Positions 1 to 58,275 of a DNA stretch of 64,000 nt are shown here, piece by piece (the stretch's first letter is position 1; each line of letters begins with the position of its first letter). Source of the DNA: Porphyra umbilicalis (Eukaryota > Rhodophyta > Bangiophyceae > Bangiales > Bangiaceae); assembly GCA_002049455.2 (NCBI GenBank), contig KV918813.1:124001-188000 (forward strand), read 5' to 3'. A program made the position numbers and the translations under genes. The notes under the pieces were generated by a model. The model saw only the letters and a program-made list of their open reading frames with translations. It ran no database searches and was not told the origin of the DNA.

Positions 1-474
1 TCCGGGAAATTGCAAACGATCCGCTCCGATCGGTCCGGTCGACGAGTGATCTCAATTTGACCGGCGGCACCCTCCACCGTGGATCTGCCGCCACACAAAC
101 GCGCGTGGCGCCCGCAGATCCAACGGCCACGAAGGCCACGAGGGGACACCTCGATCGGGCACCGCAAGTGTCCGTCAGACCGTCATATCCCCGCGAACCG
201 TCGAGGCAGCGCCCCCTCCTCCCACCCGAGCACATGCCACTGTTTGCTGACGCCAGCCGCACCGTCGTCCTACCGCGCACTGCCCAGCATCTCTTTGCCA
301 CCCGATCGTCTGTGGCAACGGCGTGCTCCCCCCCAACCCCCCGCGCTGCGCGCTGTGGGCGTTCTCTTTTTTATCATCGTAAGTGTAACCCGCTTGTTCC
401 CCCCCCCCCCCCCCCCCCGCCTTCTTGTCCCCCCCCCCCCTCCCCCGCCGCACGCTGTGTCTGGCACCATCGAT
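1..474. other. Low-complexity left edge with poly-C tracts
   Basis: No supported gene. An uninterrupted run of about 20 C lies at 399-418 and shorter C runs follow to about 450. Several frames are open only because the sequence is C-rich and poor in stops. If the transposon proposed for 0.5-11 kb is real, its left terminus lies here or before base 1. Confidence 0.6.
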
Positions 475-1370
475 CACCCCCGAAAGGGTCGACATCGCAA
501 GGCATCTGGAAAGGCACGCCCCCCTTCCACGGCTCCCCTCAAAAGGTTCGACGCTGCAGGGCTCCCCGAAAGGGTCGAGACCGCACGGCACCTGGAAAGG
601 CACGCCCCCCTTCCACGGCTCCCCTGAAACGGGTCGACGCTGCACGGCTCCCCGAAAGGGTCGAGACCGCACGGCACCTGGAAAGGCACGCCCCCCTTCC
701 ACGGCTCCCCTGAAACGGGTCGACGCTGCACGGCTCCCCGAAAGGGTTGAGACCGCACGGCACCTGGAAAGGGACGCCCCCCTTCCACGGCTCCCCTGGA
801 AAGGGTCGACGCTGCACGGCTCCCCGAAAGGGTCGACACCGCACGGCACCTGGAAAGGCACGCCCCCCTTCCACGAGCTCCCCTGAAAAGGGTCGACGCT
901 GCACGGCTCCCCGGAAGGGTCGACGAACTGTGCATGCCTTCGCGCTGTACAACCGACCGTCGTTGTGATCCCCCGAAATGGCGGACCGTACACTGCACCC
1001 CGAAAGGGACGGCCAGCTGTGTCATCGGCGTTGTTTGGTCTTCGTGCACGTCTATCTATCGGCTTTGCGGTCCCCTGAAAAGGCGTACCACACACGGTAT
1101 CCTGAAAGGGAAGACCTGTAGTCGTCATCGGTGTTTGACAGCTGCTGGCCCGGATCACCATCGTTGAGTCGGTCCCCCGTGAGGGCGGACTGCGCACAGC
1201 ACCCCGAAAGGGACGGCCAACTAACCCGATAGGGACGGCCAACTGTGTGATCTATGGTGCTCGGGGCTCGCCACACCGCTACCTGCGTGCTCTGTGGCCT
1301 CCCGAAAGGGTTGGTTGTGATTCGCGTCCCGAAAGGGACCACGCACTCCCGAAAGGGATTGACGAATCGC
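475..1370. repeat. Array of CCCGAAAGGG motifs with 86-bp tandem core
   Basis: From about 475 to 925 an 86-87-bp unit is tandemly repeated about five times; equivalent positions fall at 561, 647, 733, 819 and 906. Each unit holds several versions of CCCGAAAGGG or CCCTGAAAAGGG, a near-palindrome usually followed by TCGAC or ACGG. The motif continues without strict tandem order to about 1360 (e.g. 1001, 1202, 1303, 1330, 1348). EnSpm/CACTA elements are known to carry dense subterminal arrays of short transposase-binding motifs. By inference this array, next to an EnSpm-like element, could play that role. Confidence 0.75.
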
Positions 1371-1425
1371 GGAGCTACCCGCTGGTACGGGCAAGAATCT
1401 ATCGCTGGCAAGCCACACGCCGGAT

Positions 1426-4400
1426 ATGGATGGGGATCGGGACACGAGCTGGTGCCGTGGCAGCGGTGGCGACCGGAGCGCGTCTGAAGACGCTCCGACT
1501 GAGAACGGGCCCAACAAGCGGCAGCGCAACGAGTCCCGGGGCGCGCAGCCTGCGATGTCGCAGGCGCAGGTGCTCCAAGCCGAAGCTGCGCGGGCGCAGC
1601 GTGTCGCTGCCCAGATGCGTGTGGCGGCCCGTGCCGCCCAGCGCGCCGAGGACCTCGCGCGGCCGTCTGCTGTGGGCCCCTCGCAATGTGATGCGGGCCA
1701 ATCGAGCGGCGACGGTGGTGACGTCGGCCGCGGCCGTGCTCGCGGCCGCGGAAGATCCAAGAGGCGAAGTCGCGGGGCCGGCTCTCACATGGGCGGCGAC
1801 GGAACCTCAGAAACTGTGGCACGCCAAGGTCGCGGCAGACCAGCACCTGACCGTGATCTGGGAGCGTCGTCACGGACCGGATCGGCGCCGGAGCACGGGG
1901 CGGCGATATCTGCGACCGCCCCGAACCGCGCGATGCGGCCCCTGCATCTGCAGGGAGGTGTGGCCCCAGATGCTCCTGGCAACGCGGGCGCCAATCGCTG
2001 GCGTAACCGGCCTGCAGCAGTGTCGGATCGCGCCTCGGTGCACGCCGCCAACGCATCTGGCGACGGCGAGCCACGGCCGTCAGCTGCCGCACTAGTGGGA
2101 GTGCTGCATGACGCGCGGCGGCCGCTGATTGGGCAATCCACAGGGGGACTGTCAATGGCCCAGTTGCCGATGGTTCTGAGCGCACTTGAGATTGCCGGTC
2201 GACAATTTGTTCCCAGCGCAGATCAATTGCGGACCATGCGCAACTGCTCCGGTGGTTGCGGCGACGCCGCCGCCCTGGATTCGCTACTGGCGGCGGCTGT
2301 CAGGGGCTTGGAAGATGACGTCAGCCGCTCCGCACCCAATGCGGCCGACACTGCCTCTGTATTTGTGCAGCGTGCCTTGCAGTGGCACGCGTGCAGCGGC
2401 GGCTGTTCCAGTGGGCTGCGAGAGACAACGATGCACGAGCCACGGCCGCGCCCGCTCGAAGCGACTGCCGAGACCCCAGCCGCACGGGGCGAGCTGCTGC
2501 ATGCCGTCAGTCCACTGCCGAACCGCGCCGTTGCTGTGCCAGCCGCCCACGACGCTCCACCGCAATCCAATGTACGCCGGGCTCCCTTGCGAGGCTCCCT
2601 GGGACTCACCGCGGGCCTCTCCGCGCCTAGTCCTCGGCCGCACGATGTGCCACGACATGCTCACTCGATTGCCCGAGGGAATGCTCGGCCTTTAGCTGCT
2701 GGGGAGGCCGTCAGAGGGGATCGCTCACGCCTTTCAACGCAGCAGCGCTGTAGCGAAGACCTCGTTTACGACGATGACATGACCATTGCCACGGCGAGCC
2801 CGGCGCGACAGCGAGGTCGACGTCCCTGGCATGCTACCGCCGCCGAGGTGGGCGCATGTCTGCAGCGCCCCCCCCCGCCACGGTTTCCCCGTGAGCCACC
2901 TTTTTTGTTTCCTTCCAACGCCTCTCGGAGTGTGGAGCTCTTCCCAGTTGATCGGATCTCTCTGGCGGAGGTCAATGCGCTCTCGCGGCGCGTGGTGGAT
3001 GGGCTATTCCTCTGGTTCCTGATGAAGTTTGGCCGCGACGGGGGCTATGGCGGTCTCCGAGTGTTGACCTCCTTGGACGCTGATGACATGGCAGCCTCCG
3101 TGTGCCGAGATGATCGCCTGGTTGGGCGGGTTCGTGACGCAATCGTGGACCGGCTGGTGTTCAGCGCAGGCACGACGGTAGTTCCCGTGTGCACGGCTGG
3201 TACCTGGTGGGCAATCGTTGTGACGGGTCTGCGGGAGACCGTCGTACGAGTGGTCGCCTCTGTGCGCTCAGGCGCGGCGCTCTCGGATGAGGCCGTGCCA
3301 GGGGCGGCGATGGCTGTGATTGACACCTCGTCGGTCGGGAAGGGTGAGGGGGGGTGGGACGAGCATGTGGTGACAGGCCTCTTCCGTGCGTCAACGGTGG
3401 CCATCTGCACTACCTACCTGCGCACTTGCGACGATTCGCGGAAAACTAGGCTCGTCGAGGATGGCCTGCGCGACCTTCTTCCCATCAAGGTGCTCAAGAC
3501 TCGGGCAGGGGGGCGAGACACGACGGCGGACAACCTGATTGCGTTCATGGCGATACTTCTGTCGGCTGAGCCGGGACAAGCAACCCGCCTTCTTCGCGGT
3601 CACGACTCGAGCCAATGGCAGAAGGCCCACGCCCCTCGGCGCTTTCGTAGCCTTGTCCGCCGCATTATCGACGCCCATCGACCAGGTGGTCTTAGGGACG
3701 ATGAGGAGGAGCCAGCAGAGGAGCTGCTTAATGGTCGTGATCTGTCTGACGAAGAGGAGACGGACGCTGATGACGCAATGCGAGACGTGGACGATGACTA
3801 CGATGACGGGGGGTCGGGTGACCGGGCAGGCTACATGAACGACTACCGTGACGGCGGCCGAGATGGCGGCCTTGATGCGAATCCCGGCAGTCGGGTCGAG
3901 TCGATGAGTCGACGTGGATCGCATGGGGCCCTCGATGGTGCTCATGGTGGTGATGTACGGCGGCGTCGCGTTTCCCTTGGGCGCGTCGTCGGCGACACAG
4001 TCGTCGGCCTCGGTGCCACCCATGATAGGCTCAGCGGCGGCGGACAAGGTTCCCACCGCCAATCTGTCGGACATGCGCAAGGTGATCCTGACACCCGAGG
4101 TGCTGATGGCATGCGTGTGGGTGGTGCTGGCCGTCACTCTGACGCAGATGCTGCCCGCGCCCAACCCATTGCATGTGCGAAAGAGGCACACGGTCGTCGA
4201 TATCCCGATGCTGCCCGACAAGATGCTGGTGACTGTTACTCTGGCAGAGGTGGCCGACGACGGGGACTCGTGCATGGACAAGGTGCAGACGACGACGGCT
4301 CTCAACGAGCAGATGCATTGGATGTTCGACAAGCACGCCGTCCGTCTCCTGAACGTGCGCATGCTCGCGACGATGCTGTTCGTGCGGGTGCTATCGGAAG

Positions 4401-6186
4401 ACATTATGGCAACAGAGGTGGTGACGGCCGCGAAGGAGGTGAAAGTGCAGGTTGCGACGGCTGGCGTGGTGGTGACCAAGAAGATGGACACGGGGTTGGC
4501 GGTTGCGACGATGAGCTTGATCAAAGTGGAGGAGATGAAGGCACCCATCATGGCAATGGCGCTGACGACCGGCGCCACCAAGCTCCCTGTGCCGTCGCAA
4601 GCGCGGGGGGCGGACGCATGGCGCATGTCCAACCAGTCGCATGTGTGGCGCGAGAGCGTGAAGCCCGAGCTGTACATGGCAACACTGGGGGCGGCGATGT
4701 CGGAGGTGCTGTTGACGCCCATCGTCCCAATCGCGCTGATCACGGGCGAGCGCGTGGTGCTCGTGATGACCCACGACCCGGTTCTGATCAAGGTCATCTT
4801 GCTGCAGGCGTGCACGATGCCGGCAGCCGAAGCGTTGGACGTGCGCAATGAGCGCCTGACGCCCGAGTTCTTAGTGCTGTTCGAGGGGGTGGTGAAGGCC
4901 AAGGAGGTGGTGACCAACAACATGTCGACGGCGGTACAATTGGCAACAATGGAGGTGGCGACGGCGGAGGAGCGGTGGACGCCCATCGTCTCGATGGCGA
5001 TGAGGACCGGCGAGCCCGTAATGCTCGTGCTGACCCAGGAGCCGGTGTCGATCACGGTCATGTGGATGGTGGAGGACATGGTGCCCGCCACCGAAGTGTG
5101 GGACGTGCGCAACAAGCGCCTGACGCCCGAGATGCTCATGATGCTCGACGAGGTGATGATCAGCGACGTGACGACGGCGTCGCTGGTGGCGACACTGGCG
5201 GCGGCGACGGCGGGGGTGCTGTTGACGCCCATCGTCCCAATCGCGCTGATCACGGGCGAGCGCGTGGTGCTCGTGATGACCCAAGACCCGGTTCCGATCA
5301 AGGTCATCTCGCTGCAGGCGTGCACGATGCCGGCAGCCGAAGCGTTGGACGTGCGCCAAGAGTGCCTGACGCCCGAGGTGCTGATGCTGCGCGAGGAGGT
5401 GGTGCTGGTCGTCGTGCCGACGCCGATGGGGGACGCGCTGAGGGCGTTTCCGACTCGCGACGGGGTGTAAATGGAGGCGTGCACGGCCAGGGAGGTGGGG
5501 AGAACCAGGTCGTCGACGGCCAGAGTGGTCGTGTGGCAGGAGGCGGTGGCGTTCGTGGAGACGGCGGCCAACTAGGTGACAATGGCGAACGTGATGATGA
5601 CCATCGACGTGGCGACGGCTCGGGGCCTGTGCGTGCCACCACGGCTGCGGTGGAGCCATATGCTGCCAGCTCCTCAACGGAGGGCGCCGGTTCCGTTGCC
5701 CAGACGGAAGAGCGGTTGGATGTCGCTGGCCTAGTGTTTGAACTCCTCGGTTTGGGTCACGCTTCGCGTCTTGGTGATGCGTTGAATAGCTTGGACTCTG
5801 CAGACCTCAACATCCTCGCCAGTTTTGCTCCTGTGACACCATGTCCTCGACACAAAGCTGCAGAAGCTGACGGTGGTGGCTCAGCGGAGGCGCGCACGAA
5901 CGGTCCTAGCCCTGGAACTGTGGTTGATGGCGACGCAGAACCGGGCGCCGCTGGCGTCGCAGCCATTCGTGCAGTGCCACGCCCGGGGGCCACTGCAGGC
6001 CACCCTGCTGGCGACGTTAGCGCTGAGAGGAGGGAAGCAACGCTACGTAGAGCACCTGCCCGTACCGACAGAGATGCCTGTGGCTCACTTGAGGCATCGC
6101 GTCTACGCGAAGTACGGCCAAATGTCGAGACGGGCAATTTACAGCGGCGTCCGATGGACTTTCACATAATTCCAATTACTTTTTAA
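1426..6186 (+). CDS. Long repeat-containing ORF, possible degenerate Ulp1/C48-like domain, one internal stop
   Basis: The ATG at 1426 opens a frame that runs to a TAA at 6184-6186 with a single in-frame TGA at 4849-4851, so the product is truncated near residue 1141 unless that stop is spliced out or read through. The first ~490 residues look disordered. Residues about 515-760 are compact and hydrophobic with the outline of an Ulp1/C48 cysteine protease: a VVDGLFLWFL-like start, a VPVCTAGTWWAIVV strand, VIDTS, and a late RDTTADNLIAF segment. At the positions where C48 enzymes have HW and DCG this protein has WW and DNL, so if related it is probably inactive. An acidic stretch and degenerate Gly/Asp/Arg-rich repeats follow (3.9-5.4 kb). 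Ulp-like genes are known passengers of plant CACTA and Mutator elements. The family call is tentative; reality of the ORF is better supported than function. Confidence 0.45.
3910..5420 (+). repeat. Degenerate in-frame tandem repeat inside the first ORF
   Basis: A block beginning ACGCCCATCGTC recurs at 4715, 4979 and 5225, and diverged copies extend upstream. The two spacings are 264 and 246 bp, both multiples of three, which fits selection for an open reading frame. The internal TGA at 4849 lies in one copy at a place where other copies have sense codons. Confidence 0.65.
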
Positions 6187-6240
6187 AGTACCTTTCCGGA
6201 GCTTGGACTGCATGGTCTGATTCGATCCAAGTTGGCATCG

Positions 6241-7917
6241 ATGCGGACTTCCAGTGCGCACGTGTTCCGAGTGGTTGCACGCGCGGTGCGCCCGGTTCCT
6301 AGCAGGGCTCCAAAGCGACTTGTCGGGGACAACGTCAGGGTTCGCATTCAAAGCTTCCCACAGTTCCCGACAATTGTCAGCGACACGTTCCGTGGTCGCC
6401 GTGCTATGGACCGCAACGTGAAAGGCAGAGAGCTACAGAACCAGCTGCCAGCTGAAGGCCAGAAGTGGATGTCACCAAGCCGGCTGAGTGCCAGGATCGA
6501 GGAGAGTTCCAACGCCATGATATCCCGGTACAAGGACCTCACTGTTTCTAGCTTCCTCAGGAACGTGAACGATGCCAATGTGACCTGGGTCCGAGAGGTG
6601 ACCGCTGCTGGCCACGAGAAAGCGGTGTTGGGTCCTGGGAAGCCTCACCCAATTGATGTGTACTATGTGTCGGACTTTTCGCCTGACAATGAGGACGGGT
6701 GCAGCAGGAGTCTGGGAGATCCCGCGTGCAAGACCGCAGTGGACCAGTCCTTCCCCACCGACCGACTGCAGAACCCACGTACCCTGAACCATCACAGTAT
6801 GCTCGGAGCGGGGTCAACATGTGAAGGTGTCAATACCAACTTGCTCTACATGGGAACCATGGGATCTTTCTTCAGCTGGCACGTGGAGGACAGCCTGCTC
6901 CTGTCCGTCTCGTACTTGCAGACCGGGGCGAGTAAATACTGGTTCTTTGTGCCCAGATCCGAGCTCCCCCTGATGGTGCGCGTCCTGGAAGAACACATGG
7001 ACCCAGACGTACTACAAGCTGCTGGGGGTGATGTGTGGACGGTTCTAGCGAAGAAGGCCGTTTTGTGGCCAGCTACGTTCTTCCTTGCTCACGGAATCAG
7101 AGTTGGTTTCCACGCGATGGAGGTCGGGGACTATGTCGTGACTGGGTACGGGGTTCCCCACAGTGGCTTTAACGGAGGTAAGAACGTGGCGTCGGCCGTG
7201 AACCTTGCATGCACCGGCTGGCTTTCATATGCAATGGAGCACGCGGCGCAGTGGCACGGAAAGCTCGCAATCCTGATCCCATTTGAGAAGCTGTTGATGC
7301 TGGCCGCTATGAAGCTTGTTGATGGAGAATGGTGGGTCGGCAATGCAAAAACATATGAAGCTTGCGACCCAGCCGAGTTCCGACGGGACCTCCTCGTGAT
7401 GGTGGCCTATCTCGACAAGTATCTCGACCGCGTCCTGGCTTACATGAAAATGGATGCGCACCGTACTTGCGTCGGCAAGACGCCGACAGTCGTGGGACTC
7501 GACCGCGCCCCTCAGCTTGTGCAGCAATTCATTGCTGACAATGCTGTCGACACGAAAGGGGACCCCCTCGTGATTCCACATGAGGATGCTGCAAAGGTGA
7601 CGGACTACTCGGTGGACGGCGCGTCATGTCCCCACTGCGGAAAAGTGGCTTGGCTCTCCGTTGTTGTCTGCCAGACGTGCATTGAGGAGCTCGGAGACGA
7701 AGCGGCTAAGTTTGCGCCTTTTTGCTGCTTGGAGTGCGCGCCAGATGTATACGATGGCGAGCACGATCGACTCCGCAAGACTCCTCTACCAGGGACCCAA
7801 CCCGTGGATGCTCATGTCCCTCTTGTGGTACAGCGACTGGCCAATGGCCGCGTGTCCTTGATGGTGGAGCACCTGAAGAACATGGTAGCGGTTGATGGGG
7901 AAGAAGGGAGGTCGTGA
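6241..7917 (+). CDS. JmjC-domain protein, KDM4/KDM5-like, with C5HC2-type zinc finger
   Basis: A 558-residue protein from the ATG at 6241. The JmjC core is complete: WHVED supplies the iron ligands His214 and Glu216, the 2-oxoglutarate-binding lysine is Lys232 in KYWFFVP, and the distal ligand is His307 in VPHSGFNGG. The context around them matches the JARID/KDM4-KDM5 pattern. From residue ~463 a CPHC...CQTC...CCLEC cluster resembles the C5HC2 finger that follows JmjC in these enzymes. Family members demethylate histone lysines in the nucleus using Fe(II) and 2-oxoglutarate. No JmjN, PHD or Tudor domain is seen, and the protein is short for KDM4/5. It lies in the same frame as the preceding ORF, only 54 bp after its stop, and faces a transposase gene. 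By inference it is an element-borne chromatin modifier; a captured or isolated host gene is the alternative. Confidence 0.85.
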   Translation: MRTSSAHVFRVVARAVRPVPSRAPKRLVGDNVRVRIQSFPQFPTIVSDTFRGRRAMDRNVKGRELQNQLPAEGQKWMSPSRLSARIEESSNAMISRYKDLTVSSFLRNVNDANVTWVREVTAAGHEKAVLGPGKPHPIDVYYVSDFSPDNEDGCSRSLGDPACKTAVDQSFPTDRLQNPRTLNHHSMLGAGSTCEGVNTNLLYMGTMGSFFSWHVEDSLLLSVSYLQTGASKYWFFVPRSELPLMVRVLEEHMDPDVLQAAGGDVWTVLAKKAVLWPATFFLAHGIRVGFHAMEVGDYVVTGYGVPHSGFNGGKNVASAVNLACTGWLSYAMEHAAQWHGKLAILIPFEKLLMLAAMKLVDGEWWVGNAKTYEACDPAEFRRDLLVMVAYLDKYLDRVLAYMKMDAHRTCVGKTPTVVGLDRAPQLVQQFIADNAVDTKGDPLVIPHEDAAKVTDYSVDGASCPHCGKVAWLSVVVCQTCIEELGDEAAKFAPFCCLECAPDVYDGEHDRLRKTPLPGTQPVDAHVPLVVQRLANGRVSLMVEHLKNMVAVDGEEGRS

Positions 7918-8135
7918 TGTGGCCGAAGTGTTTTTTTCTGCTGTTGTTTATTGTCATTTTTTGGGACCTTGAATCTTCTTTGCAGTGGGCGGAGGGCCAT
8001 TCATATGCCCTCTAGAGCGCAACATGTTGTCTGCGTTCCTTTCTCATGGCAATTTAAGACACTTTCTTCGTTTCCGACAGATCGCACAAGCGACGAACGG
8101 AACAGAAACAAAGCAGTGGAAGGCTATGCCACTGA
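7918..8135. other. Short spacer between convergent genes
   Basis: This 218-bp stretch separates the stop codons of the JmjC gene (plus) and the transposase gene (minus). It is less GC-rich than its surroundings and has T-rich runs near 7930. It should hold both 3' ends; no clear polyadenylation signal was identified. Confidence 0.5.
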
Positions 8136-11123
8136 CTAGCCACTCTTGAAATGAAATCCCGACCTCTTGGAGAACAGGACGTCGTGCTGACCACGAGGCA
8201 GCACGAAGGCTATCTGCCGCACATGGTGAGCTCGGGTAATCGTGACGCCAGCTGCTACGTCGATTGCTACCAGCACGGGCTGTCCAAGGATAGAGAGCGC
8301 CATCGGTGGTAATTTCCACTTCTCCACGGCGACGTGTAGCTCTCCGTCAATCGTTCCAATGGAACGCACACGAACGAAGAGCTGCGCATCAGAATCCGTC
8401 GCTTCGGAGCTTGGTTCTTCTGAGGAGCCCTCCCTCTCCTCAGAAACAGAGAGTGTCGACCCTTCTCGGATCACGAATGATCTGTGTGGGTGCGTTGCCT
8501 TCCCGTAGAACGCGAGGACAGCATTAGGGGCCTGGCGTCTCCACAACTCCTCGGTAGAAGATCGGACAGTGTGCAGGGCTTTCTTCGGGCGCCAGTTCAC
8601 GTCGACGGCAGACGAGGGTCGCCCGTGCGGAGCTAGTCTGTGGAACTGGACCGCCTTCAGGGGCTGGCCACTCCTCCCAAGCAGCCACGACGCAGGAATT
8701 CCATACTCGTCTGGCATTGACAGCAGTCTCGAGAAGTGCTCGGTGTCCCTCCATCTCTGCATGGAGTACTCAGCGGGGTTCCGGCTGTTGCTCTTGCTTA
8801 CCTCTTGCTTTGCCAGTTGATGAAACTTTTCGAAGATCAGCTCGCACACTGCTGGTCCGAGCTGCACAAGGGGGAGCGTGCGGTACAGAAGCTCCAGTAA
8901 TCTGTGAACTGCCGGGCGCTCCCAACTTCCTTCAAAAGGTACCAGTCGACGTAGCTCCATCATCAACTGCTCACCCAGAACCTGGAGCGCGGCTACAGTC
9001 GGGCGTCCTCTCATTGCTTGTTCTCCATCAGAGGCAAGGGTTGGTAGATATAAAAAAGATATGGAAAACATGCGCAGAGCCTTGAGAGCACTAAGCGCCG
9101 CAAGGGCGTGTGGTGTCGTGGCATCGGTGTGTACAAGGTACTGTAGCACCGTGGGGCCCACCGTCAGCAGGACTGCATAGTCAGACATTGACAGAGTTGT
9201 GCCACCCATCTTCTCTGGCTCAAGAGACGACAGGACGGTGTGAGTTGGGATATGCTTAGCGCTGCGACGCATTTCCCGCATGAACCTGTCACGCTGTTCA
9301 ACGGACAATGCCTCATACGCTTCCATCAAGAGATTAGCGCCGATGTTATAGTACAGCAGGTGCGAGGGAGCGACAATAACATGGGAATGTATATCAAAGC
9401 TCCCTTCACCACGGGCCTGCTCCAGGCGCATCAGCAACGTACCACTCTTGTCTGTGATGCCGTTCAGCAATAGAGCTTCCTTCAAAGCATCGGCCGAGAG
9501 GTCGGGCGAGCCTTTCACAGTGGACATGATGACAGCCGTGCGTTCCTGCACTCGACAGTAACGAGCGTCCTGGACGTCGACAGACACTGTGCTGCTCATC
9601 GCGCGCTCCCTCCTCTCTGATGTCGTCTTTGGATGCACAATGTCGCAGCTTGTGCAGTGCTCAGTACCTCTAGGGCCAACGGAGTTTGAGAACGTGGCAG
9701 CCATAGGGAAGTCGAACACACCGAGGCACAAGTACACCCTTACAACAGCATTCTTGCGCTTGAACGCGTCATAAACGGCGACACCCTCGCTGCTCATTTG
9801 CAGAGCATCATCCACGACACGCCTGATCAGAGCATCGGAGTTTTCCCCTGGTGGCAGGTAGAAGAGTGGTCGAACGGAGAATGCACGATCTTCCAATGAT
9901 AAAGATGTATAGCCCCCATAGTACCCCTCCAAGCTCCCTCGACGCCTCTTGTACACGTTGAATTCATCCCCGTACAGAGATACATATAGAGTGTATGGAT
10001 CCTTCTCTGGGAGCGCATCGTTCGTTTGTTCAGCCACCTGGGACAGCTCTAGAGGCTGCGGCGCTGTCAAAGCCAACCAGGAGTCCTTCTCACGCTCGTC
10101 TGAGCCCCACACATTAATGACGAACACTCCTCCGGACCGGTTGAACCTCAGCGTTAGCCTGCGATCGGTTGTGAAGCACGAAGCCCAGCGCTCAGGGGGC
10201 GCGACGCCTGGAAGAACTTCAAATAGCGCTATCATGTCTCCAACTCTTAGCGTACTCTGACGAGCGTACGTTGATGCTGAGATTGTAACATCTCCATCGG
10301 GGGCAACGGCGGTGCTCTCCAAGCGGGCCTGAAGCGACGTAGTGCTGTCAAAGGAGATTTGGACAACACAGCCGATGTCATACCTGTACTTAGCACGGAA
10401 GAAGGCATTCTTGAAGCTAAACCGAGCAGGATCTCTGGCGGCTACGGTTTGAAAGAACTCTGCGGGCCGCTCAACGGTCCCTGCCCCGGAGCCCCCTTTG
10501 TTGTGGAACAGCGCTGCCGTGACAGGATCTCCAAAGTCACGCTTGATGTGTTCAGAGAACGGAATATAAGAAACCGTCACATCGGGGAGTTTGCGCAATG
10601 TTTTCCCTTTGCCAACGGGTAGCTGTCTGGTCGTCACCTCCCGTAGAAGAGGCACAGCTAGCTTCAGCAGCAGCTTGCGCAGCCTTTGCAGGCGCCACCT
10701 CGATGGCCACTTCTCCTTCGGGTTAAAAGAGTTCTCGGCCTCCCGCATGACTTCGTACTGCCTGAAGGTGACACGAGCTCGGCCAAAGAGGTATTCGAAG
10801 TATAGGAACTCTCTGCGAGAAGTGAACTCGCCAGCAGAACTGTCCTCGTCACTTGAAAACTCTGTGTCTTCCGAGGGGCATCCTTGCCGCTCAGAGTCCG
10901 TCGACAATGCAACCTCTGCATAGCCATCCGTTGAAGCCGCGGAGGGCATGTTTGTTTCGCCAAGAGTCTCAACACGCCCCGTGACGTTGCTTCTGGGTTC
11001 CTCGACGCCGGTCGTGTTCACGTCAACATGGGCGGTAGCACTCTGGGCTTCCATATGCATCAAGTTACTATCGAAAAAATTGAAGAAGGCCGCCCCTCGC
11101 GGGCCGCGCCTGCGACGCTTCAT
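8136..11123 (-). CDS. EnSpm/CACTA-like (TNP2/Plavaka/KDZ-type) DDD transposase
   Basis: An intact 995-residue ORF with ATG at 11121-11123. Three conserved blocks of TNP2-type transposases occur in order. LYGDEFNVYKRR carries the first Asp (386). GVFDFPMAATFSN followed by EHCTSC carries the second (Asp471), matching the D-x-P...C-x-x-C signature. FDIHSHV plus PSHLLYYNIGANLL carries Asp577 and His579, matching the D-x-x-H block. The C-terminal segment around HRLLELLYRTLP and EKFHQLAKQEVSKSN fits the helical tail of the family. Such enzymes cut and paste DNA transposons. The N-terminus is acidic and Ser-rich. It is convergent with the JmjC gene. EnSpm/CACTA and KDZ-type families could not be told apart by eye. 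No frameshift or stop interrupts it, so the copy may be recently active. Confidence 0.8.
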   Translation of the reverse strand: MKRRRRGPRGAAFFNFFDSNLMHMEAQSATAHVDVNTTGVEEPRSNVTGRVETLGETNMPSAASTDGYAEVALSTDSERQGCPSEDTEFSSDEDSSAGEFTSRREFLYFEYLFGRARVTFRQYEVMREAENSFNPKEKWPSRWRLQRLRKLLLKLAVPLLREVTTRQLPVGKGKTLRKLPDVTVSYIPFSEHIKRDFGDPVTAALFHNKGGSGAGTVERPAEFFQTVAARDPARFSFKNAFFRAKYRYDIGCVVQISFDSTTSLQARLESTAVAPDGDVTISASTYARQSTLRVGDMIALFEVLPGVAPPERWASCFTTDRRLTLRFNRSGGVFVINVWGSDEREKDSWLALTAPQPLELSQVAEQTNDALPEKDPYTLYVSLYGDEFNVYKRRRGSLEGYYGGYTSLSLEDRAFSVRPLFYLPPGENSDALIRRVVDDALQMSSEGVAVYDAFKRKNAVVRVYLCLGVFDFPMAATFSNSVGPRGTEHCTSCDIVHPKTTSERRERAMSSTVSVDVQDARYCRVQERTAVIMSTVKGSPDLSADALKEALLLNGITDKSGTLLMRLEQARGEGSFDIHSHVIVAPSHLLYYNIGANLLMEAYEALSVEQRDRFMREMRRSAKHIPTHTVLSSLEPEKMGGTTLSMSDYAVLLTVGPTVLQYLVHTDATTPHALAALSALKALRMFSISFLYLPTLASDGEQAMRGRPTVAALQVLGEQLMMELRRLVPFEGSWERPAVHRLLELLYRTLPLVQLGPAVCELIFEKFHQLAKQEVSKSNSRNPAEYSMQRWRDTEHFSRLLSMPDEYGIPASWLLGRSGQPLKAVQFHRLAPHGRPSSAVDVNWRPKKALHTVRSSTEELWRRQAPNAVLAFYGKATHPHRSFVIREGSTLSVSEEREGSSEEPSSEATDSDAQLFVRVRSIGTIDGELHVAVEKWKLPPMALSILGQPVLVAIDVAAGVTITRAHHVRQIAFVLPRGQHDVLFSKRSGFHFKSG

Positions 11124-12060
11124 TTATTCGAGCCCCCAGCGAGAGCCGGCTGCGAGGCGATAGTAAGTGATAGAAGAGTGTCGACGAAAGCAGGTATCGT
11201 GGGCAAGGACGGTACGAGGGGCCGCAAAAGGGCATAAGTGGAATCGAATCGAGCTCTTGCGGTACGAGTGACACAGCTCGGCGGTAACAAGAAGTGGGCA
11301 GCCGGGCGACGAGGCCGTCAGGATTGCAACAGGACAGGACGAGTCAAGGGGACCACGCACGACGAAGCCAAGTCTATCGGTCGAAGGGTAGTAAGAGAGC
11401 AACATGCGCGCTTGACAAAATGCAGGACGTCGATGCACGCAAGATCAGTTTCGCTCGTGCCGGCAGTCCAGGTCCGGATACGGGCCGCTGCACTGGCCTC
11501 ATCGGAGATCTCCCTTAGTCTCGTGACTATCGTCATGTCTATCCATGCGACAGGTTCAGAGCATTTGTCAAAGAACATCTTGCTTCCGCGAGGCTGATCG
11601 GATGGCAAAAAAGAAGTCAGATCATCCGCGAGATGATCCGACGGTCAGTTCGGTGCTCGGTCTTTCGTTTGTTCTCGCGAACTATCCACCGAGCGGTCCA
11701 GGTCCGATCCTGATATGATCCGCGGAACAGTTCTGAAGAACACGGGTACTGAAGCGCAAAAATAGTTCCCAGGTCGTTCTGACTGAAAGGTTCTTTGTCT
11801 CATCCCATTCTAGTTAAAGGACCATATCAAGATAGATCCACGAAAGAACCGGAGGACTATTCTGCTTCGGTCCTGAGATCGTTACCGGATGATCTCAGAA
11901 ATCGGTTATCGCGACCACTAGGATCGATGTGGCTGCAGTCGAAAAACGATCCCCAGAATTTTCCTCAGGAAACTTCGCGTTTGACACGAGGATTAAAAAA
12001 GGAAGAGCGAGCAACGCGCTGTGATGTCCCTCCAACCACTCGATGGGCCCACAGCGGTAC
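11124..12060. other. Non-coding stretch upstream of the transposase gene
   Basis: No supported gene. GATC-containing words are common between 11.6 and 12.0 kb, including a GATCATC/GATGATC inverted pair near 11617-11635. GGTTCTTT at about 11790 is matched in inverse by AAAGAACC near 11846. This would be the promoter and right subterminal part of the proposed transposon, but no array like the left one is seen. Confidence 0.4.
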
Positions 12061-12349: not shown

Positions 12350-12388
12350 ACTCGTATAATATATAATAATAGAATAGACACTACAATA

Positions 12389-13057
12389 GAGAGCGTCGGC
12401 AAGTCAAATGTGGGTTGGCGGCGTGGATCGAGGACACGTTTCGTGCCACGTAGCAGCCGTTACCCACATTTGGAACCCATTTGTGGCTATCTGGGTCATC
12501 CGACCCACGCCAAATACCGGTCGGTGAGGACCACGTGGCCACACACGTGGCGCTGGTTGCGCCACCACCGCTCGTCTCAGCCCGGGCTTGGCGCCCACTA
12601 CGGGCGCTTGCGTCTCCATTTTCGGGTGTATCGAGAAGACGCATCATCTTGCACCGTACAAGCTGCCTTTGTCAACCGGCACCATACCCCCCCCGATGCC
12701 GTCACCCCCCCCCCCCCCAACGCCCTTAACTGCCGGCGCCCCTCCATCCAAAACTCGCACTATGCCTACTACATCCCCCATCTCCATCGACCGCCGCCCT
12801 GTCATATGGTCGGCCGGGGCGTCTCTCCAAGGGGGAAGGGGTGATGGTGCTGGGGGTGGAGGTCAATTGGAAGGTGTTGCTCGCACAGAGGTCGCTGCAG
12901 TGCCGTTGCGGTAGATGTGGAGAGCTCAAATCGTGTCAACCGTTATTTGGACACTTGCCGACGCTAAATATGGGGAAGATGTGGGTACATCCGACGTGGG
13001 TCGGCGACCCACATTGTACCCACATTTGATACCCACGCCCGACTTGCCGACGCTCTC
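12389..13057. mobile_element. TA-flanked MITE with 17-bp terminal inverted repeats
   Basis: GAGAGCGTCGGCAAGTC at 12389-12405 is repeated exactly in inverse at 13041-13057, and each end is flanked by TA (12387-12388 and 13058-13059). Subterminal AAATGTGGGT/ACCCACATTT words extend the symmetry. At 669 bp with no supported ORF it is a non-autonomous element. The TA duplication points to Tc1/mariner-superfamily mobilisation. Confidence 0.8.
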
Positions 13058-13059
13058 TA

Positions 13060-13961
13060 ATAGTCACTGTCCGAGGCTTGTCCTTGCTCGTCCAATCGCC
13101 AAACAGGCTGTCAACAAGGCTGATACAAATGTCTTTGGTGAAGTGGGTCAGTGGCGTGGAGGATCAGCGATAGAGGCGGAAGCAAAGAAAATGCAACGAC
13201 AGGAGTGGCCACAGTCGATAGGCTGGCAGCAGGGAAGCACGGTGAACTTCTATCTGCCGTGGCTCGTGACCAAGTCATTCGGATATCAATCGCACGTGAA
13301 AGACAGGAAATGACGAAAATAGTGACAGTTTACACTTTTGTGAAGATCACTCCGGACTGTGATTTTGAATTTTTGTCCTGGGGGGGCTATCGTTGGGATG
13401 AGCAGAGGTTCTCCAGCGCGATCAAGTCCCAGTTACTTTCCAGATCGATCTTCAATTGTTTCGAAGAAACGTGTCTTCCCACGAAAGAATAGCACCGTCC
13501 AATCCGACCCACCAGCGCAGAGCCAGGACACCCCCCCCCCTTGCCTCGTCACGCGCAGGACGGGTTGCCCTGGACGCCAGCTGCTCACCACATCCGCCTT
13601 CGCGCTTGCCGCGCTGGTGCGACGCTGCCAGTCGCCGGTGCACCGCTGGGGTGCTCTGTCCTCCGCGTCTCCGGTCCGGCTCTAACGGCATTTGGCTGCT
13701 GCTCCTGCCGCTTCTGTGGCGGCCTCGTGGCTGTTCTTGTATATCTCGTCTTCTTTTTTGCGTGCTCGGCCGCTCGGGGGACACCCCGTCTAGGTGTTTC
13801 GTGCGACCTTTTTTGGATTGTTTCTCGGTTGCGGCCCCTCTCGGCCTGTCCCCGCCGGCCGATTTCTTTCTGCTCGGCGCTGAGGCACTGGCTGCCCTGG
13901 TCGACGGCGTGGCTGCTGTCGTCTTTCTCTTCGCTTTCCGGTCGTTCCACCTCCGGTGTTG
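13060..13961 (+). promoter_or_regulatory. Upstream region and probable 5' UTR of the deubiquitinase gene
   Basis: No separate gene is supported. The last ~400 bp become rich in C and T and lead to the ATG at 13962. Several frames are open but none has recognisable content. No TATA box was identified with confidence. Confidence 0.35.
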
Positions 13962-16900
13962 ATGCCGGGGCGAGAGCCTAGAGTGCCATTCGATCCGCTC
14001 CTGTCGTCTACGCGAACGCCCGCGGTGGCGGTGCTCCCTGTGGAGCGGTCCGCTGTGCCTGCCATCACGCAGGGTTTCGGTGCGGAGTAAGTTGTGCGCC
14101 TGCTTGCCGACGTGGGGGGGGTATACTCTGAATTCTGTCGGATGCTGGCCCGTTCAGCTGTGCTTGCATATCTACATCAATGCGCTTGCTCGCTCGCCCT
14201 AGCGGCACCTATATGTCTTCTTTTGCTTGTATCCGGACGCAGCGGGCGCTGTGCGTGTGTGCGTTGCATCGGTTGGGGGGCGCTTTGCCGCGCGTCCTTG
14301 GGGCACCGGTAGGCCTAACGGCTCTGCGTCACAGCGGTCGCGGTACAGCTGGTGCTGGGCCCAAGGGCTCTTCAACTGGTATCTAGCTGGCCAACCAACT
14401 CTACCACACCTAGAGGTGGCTGCGTCTGCTGCGACATGTCCCGCAATCCGAGGCCTTGGCCCAACACGGCTGGGTACTGACCATCGACGCATTGTGTGCT
14501 TTGCTCCTTGATTTTTGGTGTCGGTGGCTCTCGATTTTCTCTTCAGGCGTCTTGATGCCCCCGACGGTGAGCTGCGAGAGCAGCCCTGTGGCACGACGGT
14601 CGCGCGGGAGCAGGCGGCTGCGCCTGGTGCGGTGATCACGCCGCGTGGGACCAAGCGGTCGAGGCCGGCGTCGTCTGTCGAGGAGTTGGTACCACCCCTC
14701 GTGCTGGCCACGTCCTCTCGTCGTTCCTTGATGGACGGCGCTGCCGCGGACGTGTCCAGTGGGGATGGGCACGAGCGGACTGCCACCGACGCGGGCGGCG
14801 TCGCGGAGGCTGGTCAACCGAATGAGCCCGCCACCGCTCCTGCTGTTGTGCCCGACGCTTCGCAGTTGCAGTCGACGCCCGCGCCCACGCCCCCTTTAGC
14901 CGGCGCTGCCAATGCTGAAACGCAAGCCATGGACACGGGACCAGCCATTGGCAGTGACCAACACCAGCAGCAGCTAGAGCAGCAGCATGATGGCATGCCG
15001 TCGCCGACGCCGGTGGCCAGCAGCCCGCGTCTCGGCGGTGATGGAGCTGCTGGCGGGCGTTCTGATGCAGCTGATGTACAAGAGGTGTCGGCAAACGCGG
15101 CCACTGAGGCGGAGCTCGTGGCAGGTTCCTCCCTAGCTGTATCGGGAACACCGGCGTTGCTAGAACAGCTGGGCAAGTTAGAGGTCTTCCAAGCAACGTC
15201 CGGGCGCGTCGAGCAGCAGCTGCGGACGGCCGACGAGCCGCTGTCGGCGATTCGGCGGCTGATGAACTGCATGCTGTGCCTGATCAGCGTCTCCCGCGAG
15301 CTCCCCCTGCTTGGCGGCCCCACCGGCTTCCGACGGGCGGTGCTGGCTCAGGGCATTCCGCGCTCGTTGGTGTTGCTGCTCAAGCGGTTCATTGGCTTTC
15401 GGCGGGGCCCTCTGCGCGATGCGGCCTTAAGCACCCTCCGGGTCTCTGCCCGCCTGGTCGTGTGTGCCCTGCCCCTGGACGTGCCTGAGGCGCTGGACAT
15501 CCTGGCGCGCCTCTTCACGCTCGAAAATTACGGCACGGCGGTGTTGATCGTGTCGCAGTTTGGTCGCCGCGGCGGGGTGTACCGTAGCCAACCGATGGGG
15601 ACGTCGTTGGACACGTCCCCCCTGCACGGGGACGACGATGCGGACATTGGGGACCTGGACGACGACGATGATGATGACGTGGATGACAAGGCCACGGCGT
15701 TGGCCCTGGCGCTTTCCCGCCGGGAGCTCTCCTCGTTTGATCTGGACCCCGCCGTTTTGGAGGCCATCTCGGGAGTGGTGGGGGACAAGGACTTTGTGGG
15801 GCCGCTGGTGCAACCGCCTTCCTCTATGGCGTCGTATTCCAGCTCGGGCTCGGAGGAGTCCATTGGCGTGCCGCCGATTCGCGATCGCTCTCGCGACTTG
15901 GATGATCCAGTCGACATCACTACCGCGCTTGGCGATGATGGCGGCGACTTCGACTCGACTGTGGCCGCGCTGGCTCGTGCCGAAGCCGACAGTAAGTCCC
16001 GGGCTGAGGGCGCGGAGTCGTGGCGCGCTGGCGGCCTGGCTGTGGGGGCTGGTGCGCCGTCCGGTGGCGGGGCACTGGCGGACAGGCCGACGTCAGTTCC
16101 TGCACGGAGCATAGACGATTCGTGCGCTGCCGATCAAGCCGCTGGTGGCCAAGCACCGCCCTCTGGCGATATCCCCGCTGACGACACGGGTCGGGGTCCG
16201 TCTGTTGAGCGGCCAAGCCGTATGGACTTGCAGCAGCCCGCAGAGGGGAGCCCTGACACGGACGTGGACGGTGCGGAGCCCGTGGACGTTGCTTGGAACG
16301 ACCAATACGTGACCTCGACGCTCTACTCGACGATCAGCGAGGCGCAGGCAGGTGCCACTCCCGACGCTAATGATGCGGTGCTCGGGTTGGCGTCGGTTGT
16401 CAACGTTTTTGGTGGGCACGGCGGTTTTGACTACTTGCTGGCGCGCCTGCAGCGGGGCGTACCTCATCTCTTGCGCGCGGCTTCCGATGAGGCGCCGGTC
16501 GGCGGCGGCAACGCGAACCAGTCGGGACTGTGCCCACCGACATCAGCCAATGCTGAGCGATCGGCCGCTGCGGACGCAGCGGACAGCTTTCTGACGATGT
16601 ACCAGGTCAAGGCCTTGCTCTTTGCACCGTACAAGGTGCGCTTTTTGTTTGCGCCTCCACGAGTTGACGCCCGCGGCGTGGTGTCCAAGGGCAAGCTGTC
16701 CACATTTGCCAGTTCAGCACTCGAGGCGGTGTTCATGCGCGTCCTGTCACTGTCGGACGAGGAGCTGAAGAACGAGGACCGGCAGGCCATTGACGCCGCC
16801 CTGCACATGGCCATTGATTTTGTGCGCGCTACTCGGGTGGCCACCGCGGTGCGCCGCAACGACATTGTGTTGACAGATGGGGCCGAGTTGAGCCCTGCGG

Positions 16901-19900
16901 TGCGGCGCGGCCTCATGGTCGCTGCCCAGCAGTCCGAGTTGCAAGCCGAGCAGGAGGTGGAGCATCTCTATCTCAAACTCATCGTCAAGCGGCTGAGGTC
17001 GCGTTTCCTCGAGCAGCGGCTGATCGGCATGGCCGACCTCAAGGCAAAGGTTGCCAGTGCAGCGCAAGAGGGCGTCGGGGCGGCCGGCGAACCCAAGGTG
17101 TCGGGGCAGGGCGGCGCTCACGTGCAGGTCTCGTGTGCTACAGCAGCTGGGAGTGGGCGTAGCGCTGTTAACGTGGAGGGAGGCGTCACGGCCGCCACGG
17201 TTGGGGCGTCTACGACGGGCACTGCGGGTGCGCTCCAGCCTGTTGGTGCCGGCGATGAGAATGCGCCACCAGCAGGTCAACCACCGACGGCGGCTGAGCC
17301 CCCAGCTCTAGAACGACCAGGCCCGAGCCCCCTAATTGGGACGGTGGATGCGGGTTTGGTTTCGGATGCGAGCGGGAATGTGCAGACGGCGGCGGGCGAA
17401 GCCAAGTCGCCTGACGTCTCCCCAGCGCACGACGCGACGAGCTTGGTCATGCCAACCAAGCCAGTGGTGTCGGCCGCGACCCTGTGTTTGTGGCTGAACG
17501 ACGCGGGCATCGTCGAGCTGATTTTCGATCGCGGGCGCCTGCACGCAGAGGTCATCAAGCGGTCGAGCGAGGTGCTGCAGTTTCTGGCGGCTCGCAACGC
17601 CTTGTCGACAGCACACATTGACACATTGTGGGCGGCTACGCGGGGCACGCACGAGAGCGTCGCCCACACGGTCTACTTGGTGTTGGCGGAGCTGCCCCAG
17701 TCGCTGCGACCAGGCCTCACGGACCAGCTCTGGTGCCGCATCCGCTCCGTCCCTGCTGCTGAGTACGACACGCAGCTCGTGCAGCTGGTCAGCTCGTTTA
17801 CGTACGGGACGTTGATGAGCCCGATGATCACGTTTGTGCGTAACGCGTCGCTGCACTCGCAGCAGAGGGTTCCCCCGCCACAAGGACCCGCGGCCGGCGT
17901 TCAGGGCATGGACTGCGGTCCTGTTATGGGCAAGCAGGCGGCTGGTGCAGGCGCTGGCGCAACGCCCCTTGTCGGACCACCCGAGTGGTTTGGCATCACG
18001 CGCCTGTGGGAGCTCATCCAAGATGGTCAAGCGGTAGCGGACGCGGTTTTTGACTCGGCCTGGTCTTCTCTTCACGACTTTTTGGTTTGGGACGTTTGCG
18101 AGTCGCGGCGGAAGCCGATGATCCTCGCGTGCATCCGCAACCTCAAGCGCCACCAGTCGCAGCCGCAGAGCATCCAGCTTTTGTGCGCCCTCATCAGCAG
18201 CAAGCCATCGGGCATGTCGGCGGGTTCGGCCGCCGGGGGCGTTGCTGACACCTTCGCTTCCTTTCTGCGAGCCTTGGACCGAGAGGTCAACCTCGTCCAG
18301 GTTGTCGTCGACGACTATCAAGTCTACTCTTCGCAGGCGGTGCGCGCTGCGGCCCCCGGCGGCGCGTTTGGGCCAGGGATGGACCTCAACTACGCACGGT
18401 TGGTGCCGACGTCGCGGCCTGGCCACCTGCGGCAGGTGCATTTGCGGCTGCAGCTGCTGGCTCTTTGCATCACCAACCCCGCTGGGATTTTTGCGCTCAG
18501 CCGCGCGCAGGTGGATGTCTTGTGGGCGTCCTCGGTGGACCGGGCAGTCACACGTGCAGAGCGGGACTCGTTCTTCTCGTGGCTGTGCTATTGCTGTACC
18601 GACTTAGTCGGTAGGCGCGGCGTGCAACCCGACGCGGCGGCTCCCACCGGCGGGACGCTGCCGGCCCCGCCCGCTTCCATGATGACGGGCGTGACGGCCG
18701 CCGTGGATGCGCAGGCGGACGTGGCGCCCGCTGCCGACGCGGCCGGAGCGGACGGGTCGTCGACGCAGTCTCCAACAGACGCCAATGTACATATCACCAC
18801 GGCGTCTGTTGGGTTGAGCGTCGTCGAGTATATATTTTTTGAGAAGCTGCGCCGGATGAGCGCAGAGGTGCTGTCGGAGCGGGCGGCGCTGTGTGCGGAG
18901 GTGTATTTTCGGCTCGTCAACTGGAGCGCTGGCCGCCTCCTCGTTATCGATGCAGACGGCACACCAGCGGGTGACGGTCATGTTCGGGGCCAAATCCCCT
19001 TCACGACTAAGCTCAACAACCGGCTGTTTCCGTTTGATTGCGTGGTGGGCACGCCCGTCAGCAGCAACTTCGTGGTGCTTGCGCCGCAACTCCTTGGCGT
19101 GGACGTGATTTGGATGCTGGCGCTCGATGCGGAGGACGCGGCGGACGGAGCGCGCGCTAGTGCTCTTCTCCTTCGCTTGTATCTGCGGCACGAACGGCAG
19201 TTTTCGACGAGTACCGGGGCCCGTCTCTCTGAATTTGTGTCGCTGTGCATGCAGCATCTGTCGACGGCGGCCACTGGGTCGTCGGCGTCGAAGCTGGCGC
19301 GGCAGCGAGCGGGTCGCTGCATCCTGTTGCTGCGTGCCTTCCTCGATGAGTTCGATGCGGTCATCTCGCGTGCAGGGCTGGCCGTAACGGACCGGCGGCA
19401 CAGCGCTCGAACGCTCGGCAAGCCGCTCGTCCTCGGCGTCATTGTCATTTCGGGTGGGCGGCTCGAGTTGGAATGCCACTCTAATGATGCTCTTGGTGCG
19501 CTTCGGGCGCGCATTGCCAGCGGCCTCAACGCCCTGGGTGGATCGGCGGCGGTGCCGCCTGCTGGCGTCCGCATCATCACGGCGGGGAAAGAGCTGCGGG
19601 ACGACGCGCGGACGCTTGGTGAGCTCCGCATCATTGACCGCCAGCAGCTGCATGTGGCGCGCCGCGTGCAGCCAGCGTCAAGCGGGAGTGCCCCCGCTAG
19701 TGGGGGTGGTCGCTCCAGCCATTCGGCCGTCGGCGATGGGGATGGCGGTGCGGCCCCGAGTGGCGACGGTGCCATGGATTCCGGCATTCCCACCACTGTC
19801 GCGGCTCCGCGGTACGCCACCGTGAGCGCGTTGGACCTCGTGGAGCTGGGCTCCGACGTGGTACCCCGACGTGTGTTATCTCGCTCGCCTTACTTTGATC

Positions 19901-56380: not shown

Positions 56381-56604
56381 TCTGAGACTGCGGCGTCCTC
56401 GCCGCACGACGGAGACCGTCGACAGCGCATCGACGCGCAAGACAGGGGAACAGGAGAACCGCCGAAGTTGGAGTGGCCTTCAAGATCCCCCTAGCCCAGA
56501 AGGGAAGGCCATGCCGTCACGCACCCGACCCGGCCAACGGCATCCGAAACCGACAACAGGAAGGCCCCCGGCGAGATAGGTGAACATCGCCCACCCACGG
56601 CGAG

Positions 56605-58115: not shown

Positions 58116-58275
58116 CGCGCACCCGCCGCGAGGGTGTCGCTTCTTTCTCGAGGGCGCGGTCCTGCGCCGCTGGGTCGACCGTGGTTTCACCACATCTGGC
58201 CGCGTCGACGCGGCCCCGACTCAGTCTTCGTCCCACGGCGCAGGGCGGACCAATCGAGTTTGTCGACGACCGTCA

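Follow-up and report, generated by a model that had tools for sequence, protein, structure and literature searches.

The first 12 kb of the stretch analysed here (the window, 64,000 nucleotides of DNA from the red alga Porphyra umbilicalis) belong to a CACTA-like DNA transposon whose mobile unit almost certainly includes a gene for a JmjC protein. The window corresponds to bases 124001-188000 of contig C53 in an 83.8-Mb assembly of 665 contigs, which was the genome searched. In keeping with a red algal host, a search for phycobilisome families gave 11 rows, 10 of them on contig C665 (8 scoring over 160 bits), and the allophycocyanin alpha of this contig matched four phycobilisome PDB sequences with E below 1e-90. 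The proposal of the first-pass annotation that a CACTA-like transposon carries its own JmjC gene was supported by genome-wide linkage of the JmjC gene with the transposase, by common element ends and by target duplications. Taken as a whole, the reading that we consider probable, with some reserve, is that of an autonomous-type CACTA-like (CMCT) cut-and-paste lineage having a KDM4/KDM5/JMJ13-like JmjC protein as a regular component, used against silencing.

The limits initially assigned to the element (475-11800) proved too short. The element spans C53:121038-136023 (14,986 bp), reaching 2,963 bp beyond the left edge of the window and ending at window position 12023, and its borders are defined by the following features.

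1-12023, no strand assigned: part of the CACTA-like (CMCT) DNA transposon lying within the window, delimited by the stop of the copies' homology at 12023 and by the common left terminus.
C53:121038-124000 (L039:2038-5000): part of the element outside the window, 2,963 bp.
12011-12023, no strand assigned: right terminus GCAACGCGCTGTG (reverse complement CACAGCGCGTTGC), from the copy alignment.
12024-12025, no strand assigned: right-hand AT of the 2-bp target duplication, the left-hand one being at L039:2036-2037.

In the copy alignment, position 12023 is the end of homology for the copies on C4, C15, C31, C64 and C415, and the homology with C142 and C42, found in pieces, likewise ends there. 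One C70 copy matches 3 bp further and a second C70 copy (92% identical) ends at 12023. Leftward, the close copies stay homologous through window base 1, and the left terminus, CACTGCGTGCAGG at L039:2038, was also recognized in five of six other left flanks read by eye. The left end of the element begins with CACTGCGTG and the right end closes with CGCTGTG. Two near-identical copies from another clade, on C16 and C391, begin matching at CACTGCGTG within different flanks, as seen at their left ends. An element end between 7.9 and 8.2 kb, envisaged by the first-pass annotation as evidence against a JmjC-bearing element, did not occur in the copies compared, whose homology crosses this interval and stops at 12023.

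Aligning the copies, as had been suggested, thus returned both the ends and the target duplications. The latter are 2 bp long and agree in five of the six copies read at both ends (left/right: AT/AT for the window, TA/TA for C4, CG/CG for C64, TA/TA for C15 and GA/GA for C142), each agreement having a chance of about 1 in 16, while the C31 flanks (CT/CA) show no matching duplication. The count omits C415, in which other sequence disrupts the left end, and the left end of C70. The inverted ends are short and imperfect, with seven of the first nine bases agreeing. Long perfect terminal repeats are absent, an inverted-repeat search of 11124-12040 gave no inverted pair at all, and a search for subterminal repeats across the left 700 and right 900 bases detected no 9- or 10-mer present at least three times with at least one copy on each side.

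The element encodes the Transposase_21 (tnp2) type of DDE/D transposase expected of strict CACTA/EnSpm elements. Its ends read 5'-CACTG...CTGTG-3' and not 5'-CACTA...TAGTG-3' as the strict rule has it, and its target duplications measure 2 bp and not 3 bp. The ends do fit the looser 5'-CAC..GTG-3' definition used in the excerpted text of PMC12730594, where the CMCT clade (CACTA/EnSpm-Mirage-Chapaev-Transib and kin) is described by 5'-CA..TG-3' termini and 2-5-bp target duplications. The CA...TG termini and 2-bp duplications found here agree with that description.

Other repeats were observed in the surroundings. A PIF/Harbinger-like element (L039:1-2034, C53:119001-121034; Plant_tran PF04827, 137 bits) adjoins the left end and has 29 near-full-length and 4 partial other matches in the genome. 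At L045 (C415:50950-51750), close to the left end of the C415 copy, element sequence is flanked by a segment bounded by CACTGCGGG and CGCTGTG, which may be a small non-autonomous relative that inserted at TA. Window positions 12384-13061 are occupied by a MITE-like repeat, about 678 bp long and carrying AGAGAGCGTCGGCAAGTC near both ends, for which the best 40 of 385 candidates scored included at least 31 further matches spanning no less than 600 bp with 93-98% identity.

The intact EnSpm/CACTA-like transposase recognized at first inspection was confirmed as an open frame of 995 aa, which scored 34.3 bits against Transposase_21 (PF02992) with respect to a cut-off of 28.6.

8136-11123, minus strand: DDE/D-type CACTA-like transposase, 995 aa, open (PF02992).
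9516-9851, minus strand: Transposase_21 domain match (Pfam).

The motifs YGDEF, VYDAF, FDFPM and CTSC are located at aa 384-493. A C-x2-C follows FDFPM at aa 490-493, and the histidines at aa 579, 581 and 588 give no clear H(3-4)H.

The part of the element to the left of the window contains, on the minus strand, an open frame of 282 aa (C53:122562-123410), which returned 141 rows genome-wide, its own included. As the distant matches mostly start near aa 26-28, this gene may have an upstream intron. It is followed by a repeat array and by a large plus-strand gene.

478-924, plus strand: array of 5.2 repeats of 86 bp with the CCCGAAAGGG motif, between the left-hand minus-strand gene and the big plus-strand gene.
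1363-7917, plus strand: fusion-protein frame (N-terminal region, repeats, JmjC, cysteine cluster), with stops ending at 4851 and 6186.
2779-3789, plus strand: conserved N-terminal domain with coding constraint, 33 invariant columns in 11 copies, without a family match.
6187-7917, plus strand: JmjC portion (576 aa) of the fusion frame, in which the first ATG is at 6241 (Pfam PF02373).

The array had been likened to those at CACTA ends. The array itself is real, but its position is internal, as all 10 CCCGAAAGGG motifs of the element fall at 479-1348, some 3.4-4.3 kb in from the left end; it may perhaps be a shared control region.

The plus-strand open reading frames 1363-4851, 4852-6186 and 6187-7917 share one frame and are parted by two single stops. 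In the C64 copy (98% identical) the frame is open across 2181 aa, in the C16 and C391 copies across 2570 aa, and the longest copies have open frames of 2,000-2,570 aa with JmjC at their end. The C64 and C16 frames were read directly. Since near-identical and other copies carry the frame open, the first ORF and the JmjC ORF most likely constitute one gene, made of N-terminal region, repeats and JmjC, which two stops interrupt in the window copy. The JmjC protein initially described as intact with all its iron ligands retains the ligands (H232, E234 and H325) but is the end of a frame cut by two stops. Of the gaps reported between the genes, the 218 bp between two stops is right; in our reading the 54 bp separates the first ATG, at 6241, from the preceding stop at 6186, inside one frame.

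Among the 78 JmjC rows listed, the open frame reaches at least 1200 aa in 24 and at least 1900 aa in 12, and internal stops occur within the match in 30. Frame length alone is weak evidence, because GC-rich DNA yields long ORFs in several frames here; the codon-level constraint estimated for the N-terminal domain and the JmjC part is stronger evidence for a gene. For the N-terminal domain, dN/dS ranged from 0.14 to 0.46 in the pairs listed with dS 1-2. A same-strand JmjC was found within 12 kb downstream of this domain at 56 of 72 places and was missing at 16, in a count that used 72 of 128 rows, the 56 omitted being mostly second blocks of the same copies.

The Ulp1/C48-like domain suspected in the first ORF found no support, as Pfam, PDB profile and hhalign searches were all without a C48 match, and on these profile searches we rejected a peptidase C48/Ulp1 identity as unsupported. 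The N-terminal domain from 11 copies had no match in Pfam at E up to 5; its profile retrieved no C48 entry from the PDB, the sole match being the unrelated BACH1 (E 0.71); and hhalign against a two-sequence SENP1/SENP2 profile returned a probability of 0.8% and an E of 0.075. In this weak alignment, the register of which is plausible, Trp-containing stretches face the His site and, by eye, TADN/TADH the Cys site, and the two catalytic sites appear to be replaced. The domain is possibly a degenerate, protease-dead C48 relative. A single-sequence structure model of it was poor (mean pLDDT 37.8).

The JmjC part matched PF02373 with 58.8 bits (cut-off 24), and two features were mapped within it.

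6808-7236, plus strand: JmjC catalytic core, aa 208-350, with Fe ligands H232, E234 and H325 and 2OG lysine K250; median dN/dS 0.066.
7627-7737, plus strand: cysteine-rich (zinc-type) cluster C481..C517, C-terminal to JmjC.

The domain match, the HxE...H iron ligands and the 2OG lysine assign the protein, by sequence, to the JmjC demethylase family. H232 and E234 are conserved in 30 of 30 copies, H325 in 28 and K250 in 29. The dN/dS of the core is the lowest of six regions (168 of 301 pairs usable), the highest being that of the C-terminal tail (0.52). Position 242 is Ser in 29 of the 30 copies and also in the host-like JmjC gene L003. It aligns with KDM4A N198, so that with Ser at this position 2OG binding is not canonical.

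The closest PDB relative is Arabidopsis JMJ13 (7.9e-22 by sequence, 8.5e-24 by profile), followed by JMJ14, KDM4D (3-7e-18 with the profile), KDM5A/C and RPH1. A tree built from 17 sequences unites the 11 element JmjCs in a single clade (100/99), which groups with the host-like C344 gene L003 (93/95); the tree is midpoint-rooted and long branches meet in it, so that false joins are possible, as the tool itself warned. From these sequences we infer a single capture from a host KDM-like gene. L003 (C344:4811-5173) shares the HxED motif of the element and has a similar cysteine cluster, and is perhaps the nearest kin of the captured gene. The single-sequence structure model of the JmjC region was poor (mean pLDDT 44.4).

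Judged from these relatives and residues, the JmjC protein is likely a KDM4/5/JMJ13-like histone demethylase countering the silencing of the element, and we put the case for its acting as a histone demethylase against silencing a little above even. The element would have captured a host KDM-like gene once, and the captured gene would have been fused to an element-specific N-terminal region. The fusion protein would be made early in the element's activity and may be recruited to element DNA or chromatin through its N-terminal region or by the 282-aa partner. The enzyme would then strip a repressive histone methyl mark from the chromatin of the element, or at donor or target sites, and removal of the mark would allow the element genes to be expressed and the element to move.

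With KDM4 as well as KDM5/JMJ14 types among the best relatives, the sequence does not single out a substrate, and an active dioxygenase with another job is a less probable explanation that still deserves weight. The enzyme might act on a non-histone substrate, such as the transposase, a partner protein or a host silencing factor, or might carry out a repressive, KDM5-like H3K4 demethylation limiting copy number; KDM5-type activity on H3K4 would silence, not lift silencing. The strong constraint on the core, the most constrained of the six regions, suits such an enzyme as well, yet the closest structural relatives are named histone demethylases or jumonji factors, and in the excerpted texts of PMC12730594 and PMC11244446 the authors read analogues in other mobile DNA as anti-silencing.

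It is rather improbable that the JmjC is a non-catalytic chromatin tether, guiding insertion or holding the transposition complex on chromatin. The large low-complexity region and the zinc-type cluster to which it is fused, as well as the Ser in the 2OG pocket where KDM4A has Asn, would fit this role, but a pure tether would not need iron ligands and a 2OG lysine, which are conserved in 28-30 of 30 copies, nor a core dN/dS of 0.066.

The history of the JmjC was compared with that of the transposase. The pairwise distances of the two genes correlated with a Mantel r of 0.901 over 31 loci, a value reached in none of 2000 permutations, and both split into identical five groups at distance 0.25. 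Median dN/dS values for JmjC/transposase, calculated by the Nei-Gojobori method and rough at dS above 1, were 0.56/0.48 at dS below 0.05, 0.35/0.27 at 0.05-0.15, 0.20/0.16 at 0.15-0.4, 0.17/0.20 at 0.4-1 and 0.15/0.15 at 1-2. The raised values in young pairs are as would be expected if dead insertions decay neutrally. In old pairs the values estimated from codon substitutions are low, which shows that the lineage that keeps moving keeps its JmjC working. We give about an even chance to the broader claim that the lineage has encoded a histone lysine demethylase as a core gene since before the five sampled clades split, fused to an element-specific targeting region, and that this anti-silencing eraser, once acquired from the host KDM repertoire, outnumbers the host JmjC genes.

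Linkage was assessed throughout the genome. The JmjC-protein search returned at least 78 rows, 77 besides that of the window (76 of 159 candidates scored), and the transposase search at least 47 rows, 46 besides that of the window, at 46 places (46 of 299 candidates scored). Other copies of the transposase do carry the JmjC gene, which was among the first questions raised about this region: a convergent JmjC lies within 1.6 kb at 45 of the 47 transposase rows among the matches listed, the exceptions being on C503 and C95. With the Transposase_21 Pfam profile, for which 150 of 176 candidates were scored, at least 149 matches had an E of 0.01 or lower, and 100 of these exceeded the curated cut-off. 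Two classes of Transposase_21 were told apart by the position of the match on the profile, the second class having a profile start below 60. Among the matches listed, a JmjC was present within 6 kb at 67 of 79 members of the window's class, all 67 convergent, versus none of 70 in the other class; with the curated cut-off only, the figures among the matches listed were 43 of 46 versus 0 of 54. The second class is an internal control, confirming that CACTA-like elements here do not sit near JmjC by chance; chance adjacency was rejected on the comparison of the two classes among the matches listed. Twelve of the 79 window-class matches had no JmjC match within 6 kb. One of these, on C582, was read and by eye contains a JmjC C-terminal remnant; its transposase scored 23.2 bits, under the cut-off, and its kinship was likewise judged by eye. 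The second Transposase_21 lineage, with its 70 matches, comprises many copies with open frames near 929-1046 aa.

Starting from the JmjC side, the transposase C-terminus was detected in the downstream flank of all 30 loci L009-L038. At the C212 locus, where the JmjC is merely 35% identical, tblastn placed a transposase C-terminus downstream too, a fragment that had no match in Pfam and whose kinship rests on tblastn. Of the 79 window-class transposase matches, 56 have the 282-aa gene within 30 kb and 23 are without it, versus 3 of 70 having it in the other class; this gene stands divergently upstream, within 25 kb, at 71 of 105 JmjC places. The usual order is the 282-aa gene on the minus strand, the N-terminal domain, repeats and JmjC on the plus strand, and the transposase on the minus strand. 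An element gene (the transposase within 6 kb, the 282-aa gene within 25 kb, or both) is near 88 of the 105 JmjC places, and 17 have neither. In viral and prokaryote collections, where a negative result says little, neither the 69 candidate stretches from viral_contigs nor the 28 from genome_contigs yielded a confirmed relative.

These data make it very improbable that the JmjC is a host gene hitch-hiking as a passenger, like the fragments carried by plant CACTA or Pack-MULE elements. Gene capture by transposons is common and the related C344 gene looks host-like. Transduplicated passenger genes are, however, expected without purifying selection and in few copies, and we rejected a captured passenger on a purifying selection like that of the transposase across dS 0.15-2 (dN/dS 0.15-0.20), on identical clades at 31 loci and on a JmjC at 67 of 79 versus 0 of 70 second-class matches among those listed. 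Two unrelated neighbours, a transposon beside a host JmjC gene, are scarcely credible: adjacency in one window is all that speaks for them, and they were rejected by common ends lying outside both genes and by the same arrangement at dozens of loci.

Returning to the element with its own JmjC, the nearest analogue is provided by the EnSpm elements carrying TET/JBP. According to the excerpted text of Kojima 2025 (PMC12730594), TET/JBP dioxygenases occur in fungal EnSpm, ESTA, Plavaka and other transposons, with reading frames said to be mostly intact. As in the present case, these are CMCT-type transposons encoding a 2OG/Fe(II) dioxygenase suited to altering a silencing mark. The TET/JBP enzyme, however, oxidises methylcytosine in DNA, whereas here the JmjC is of the histone-demethylase class and is fused to a large element protein, and the EnSpm elements described there have 3-bp target duplications and fungal hosts in contrast to the 2 bp and the red alga found here. 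Oomycete HarbingerS and MuDR elements with SET histone methyltransferases, as cited in the same excerpts, resemble the present element in being DNA transposons with a histone-methylation enzyme, but they carry a writer in other superfamilies, whereas the enzyme here would be an eraser.

In the excerpted part of PMC11244446, endogenised giant viruses of Amoebidium are a further case in which foreign DNA has multiplied a KDM4-type JmjC that is proposed to help it escape silencing; there, the carriers are viral insertions with JmjC-only multi-exon genes (39% of insertions), whereas here a transposase, short inverted ends and target duplications are present. Arabidopsis VANDAL elements encode an anti-silencing function, VANC, which is the likeness to the proposed role of the JmjC, but in the excerpts of PMC10398659 and PMC5735166 VANC is described as sequence-specific and not as a JmjC enzyme. 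Plant CACTA/EnSpm elements share with ours a DDE transposase, CAC...GTG ends and a second element gene, and differ by canonical CACTA/TAGTG ends and 3-bp target duplications in the excerpted text of PMC4158355, compared with CACTG/CTGTG, 2 bp and a JmjC fusion gene here. No report of a JmjC-bearing CACTA element was found in the literature searched, the coverage of which was incomplete, making this weak evidence of novelty.

Transposons with DNA-demethylating TET/JBP dioxygenases and with the sequence-specific anti-silencing VANC have been described before; if a histone demethylase is indeed conserved in a transposon family, the arms race would extend to histone marks. Such a family would also make possible a direct test of whether an element-borne eraser changes the chromatin at its own copies. 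Moreover, 88 of 105 JmjC places adjoin mobile-element genes, so that "histone demethylase genes" could be overcounted in such algae.

Finally, two features were observed in the remainder of the window. An uninterrupted ORF of 4553 aa (14512-28173) with UBP24/USP9X ARM repeats and a UCH domain is probably a giant intronless host deubiquitinase gene, and long tandem arrays with periods of 335 bp and 461 bp occupy positions 56588-60412.
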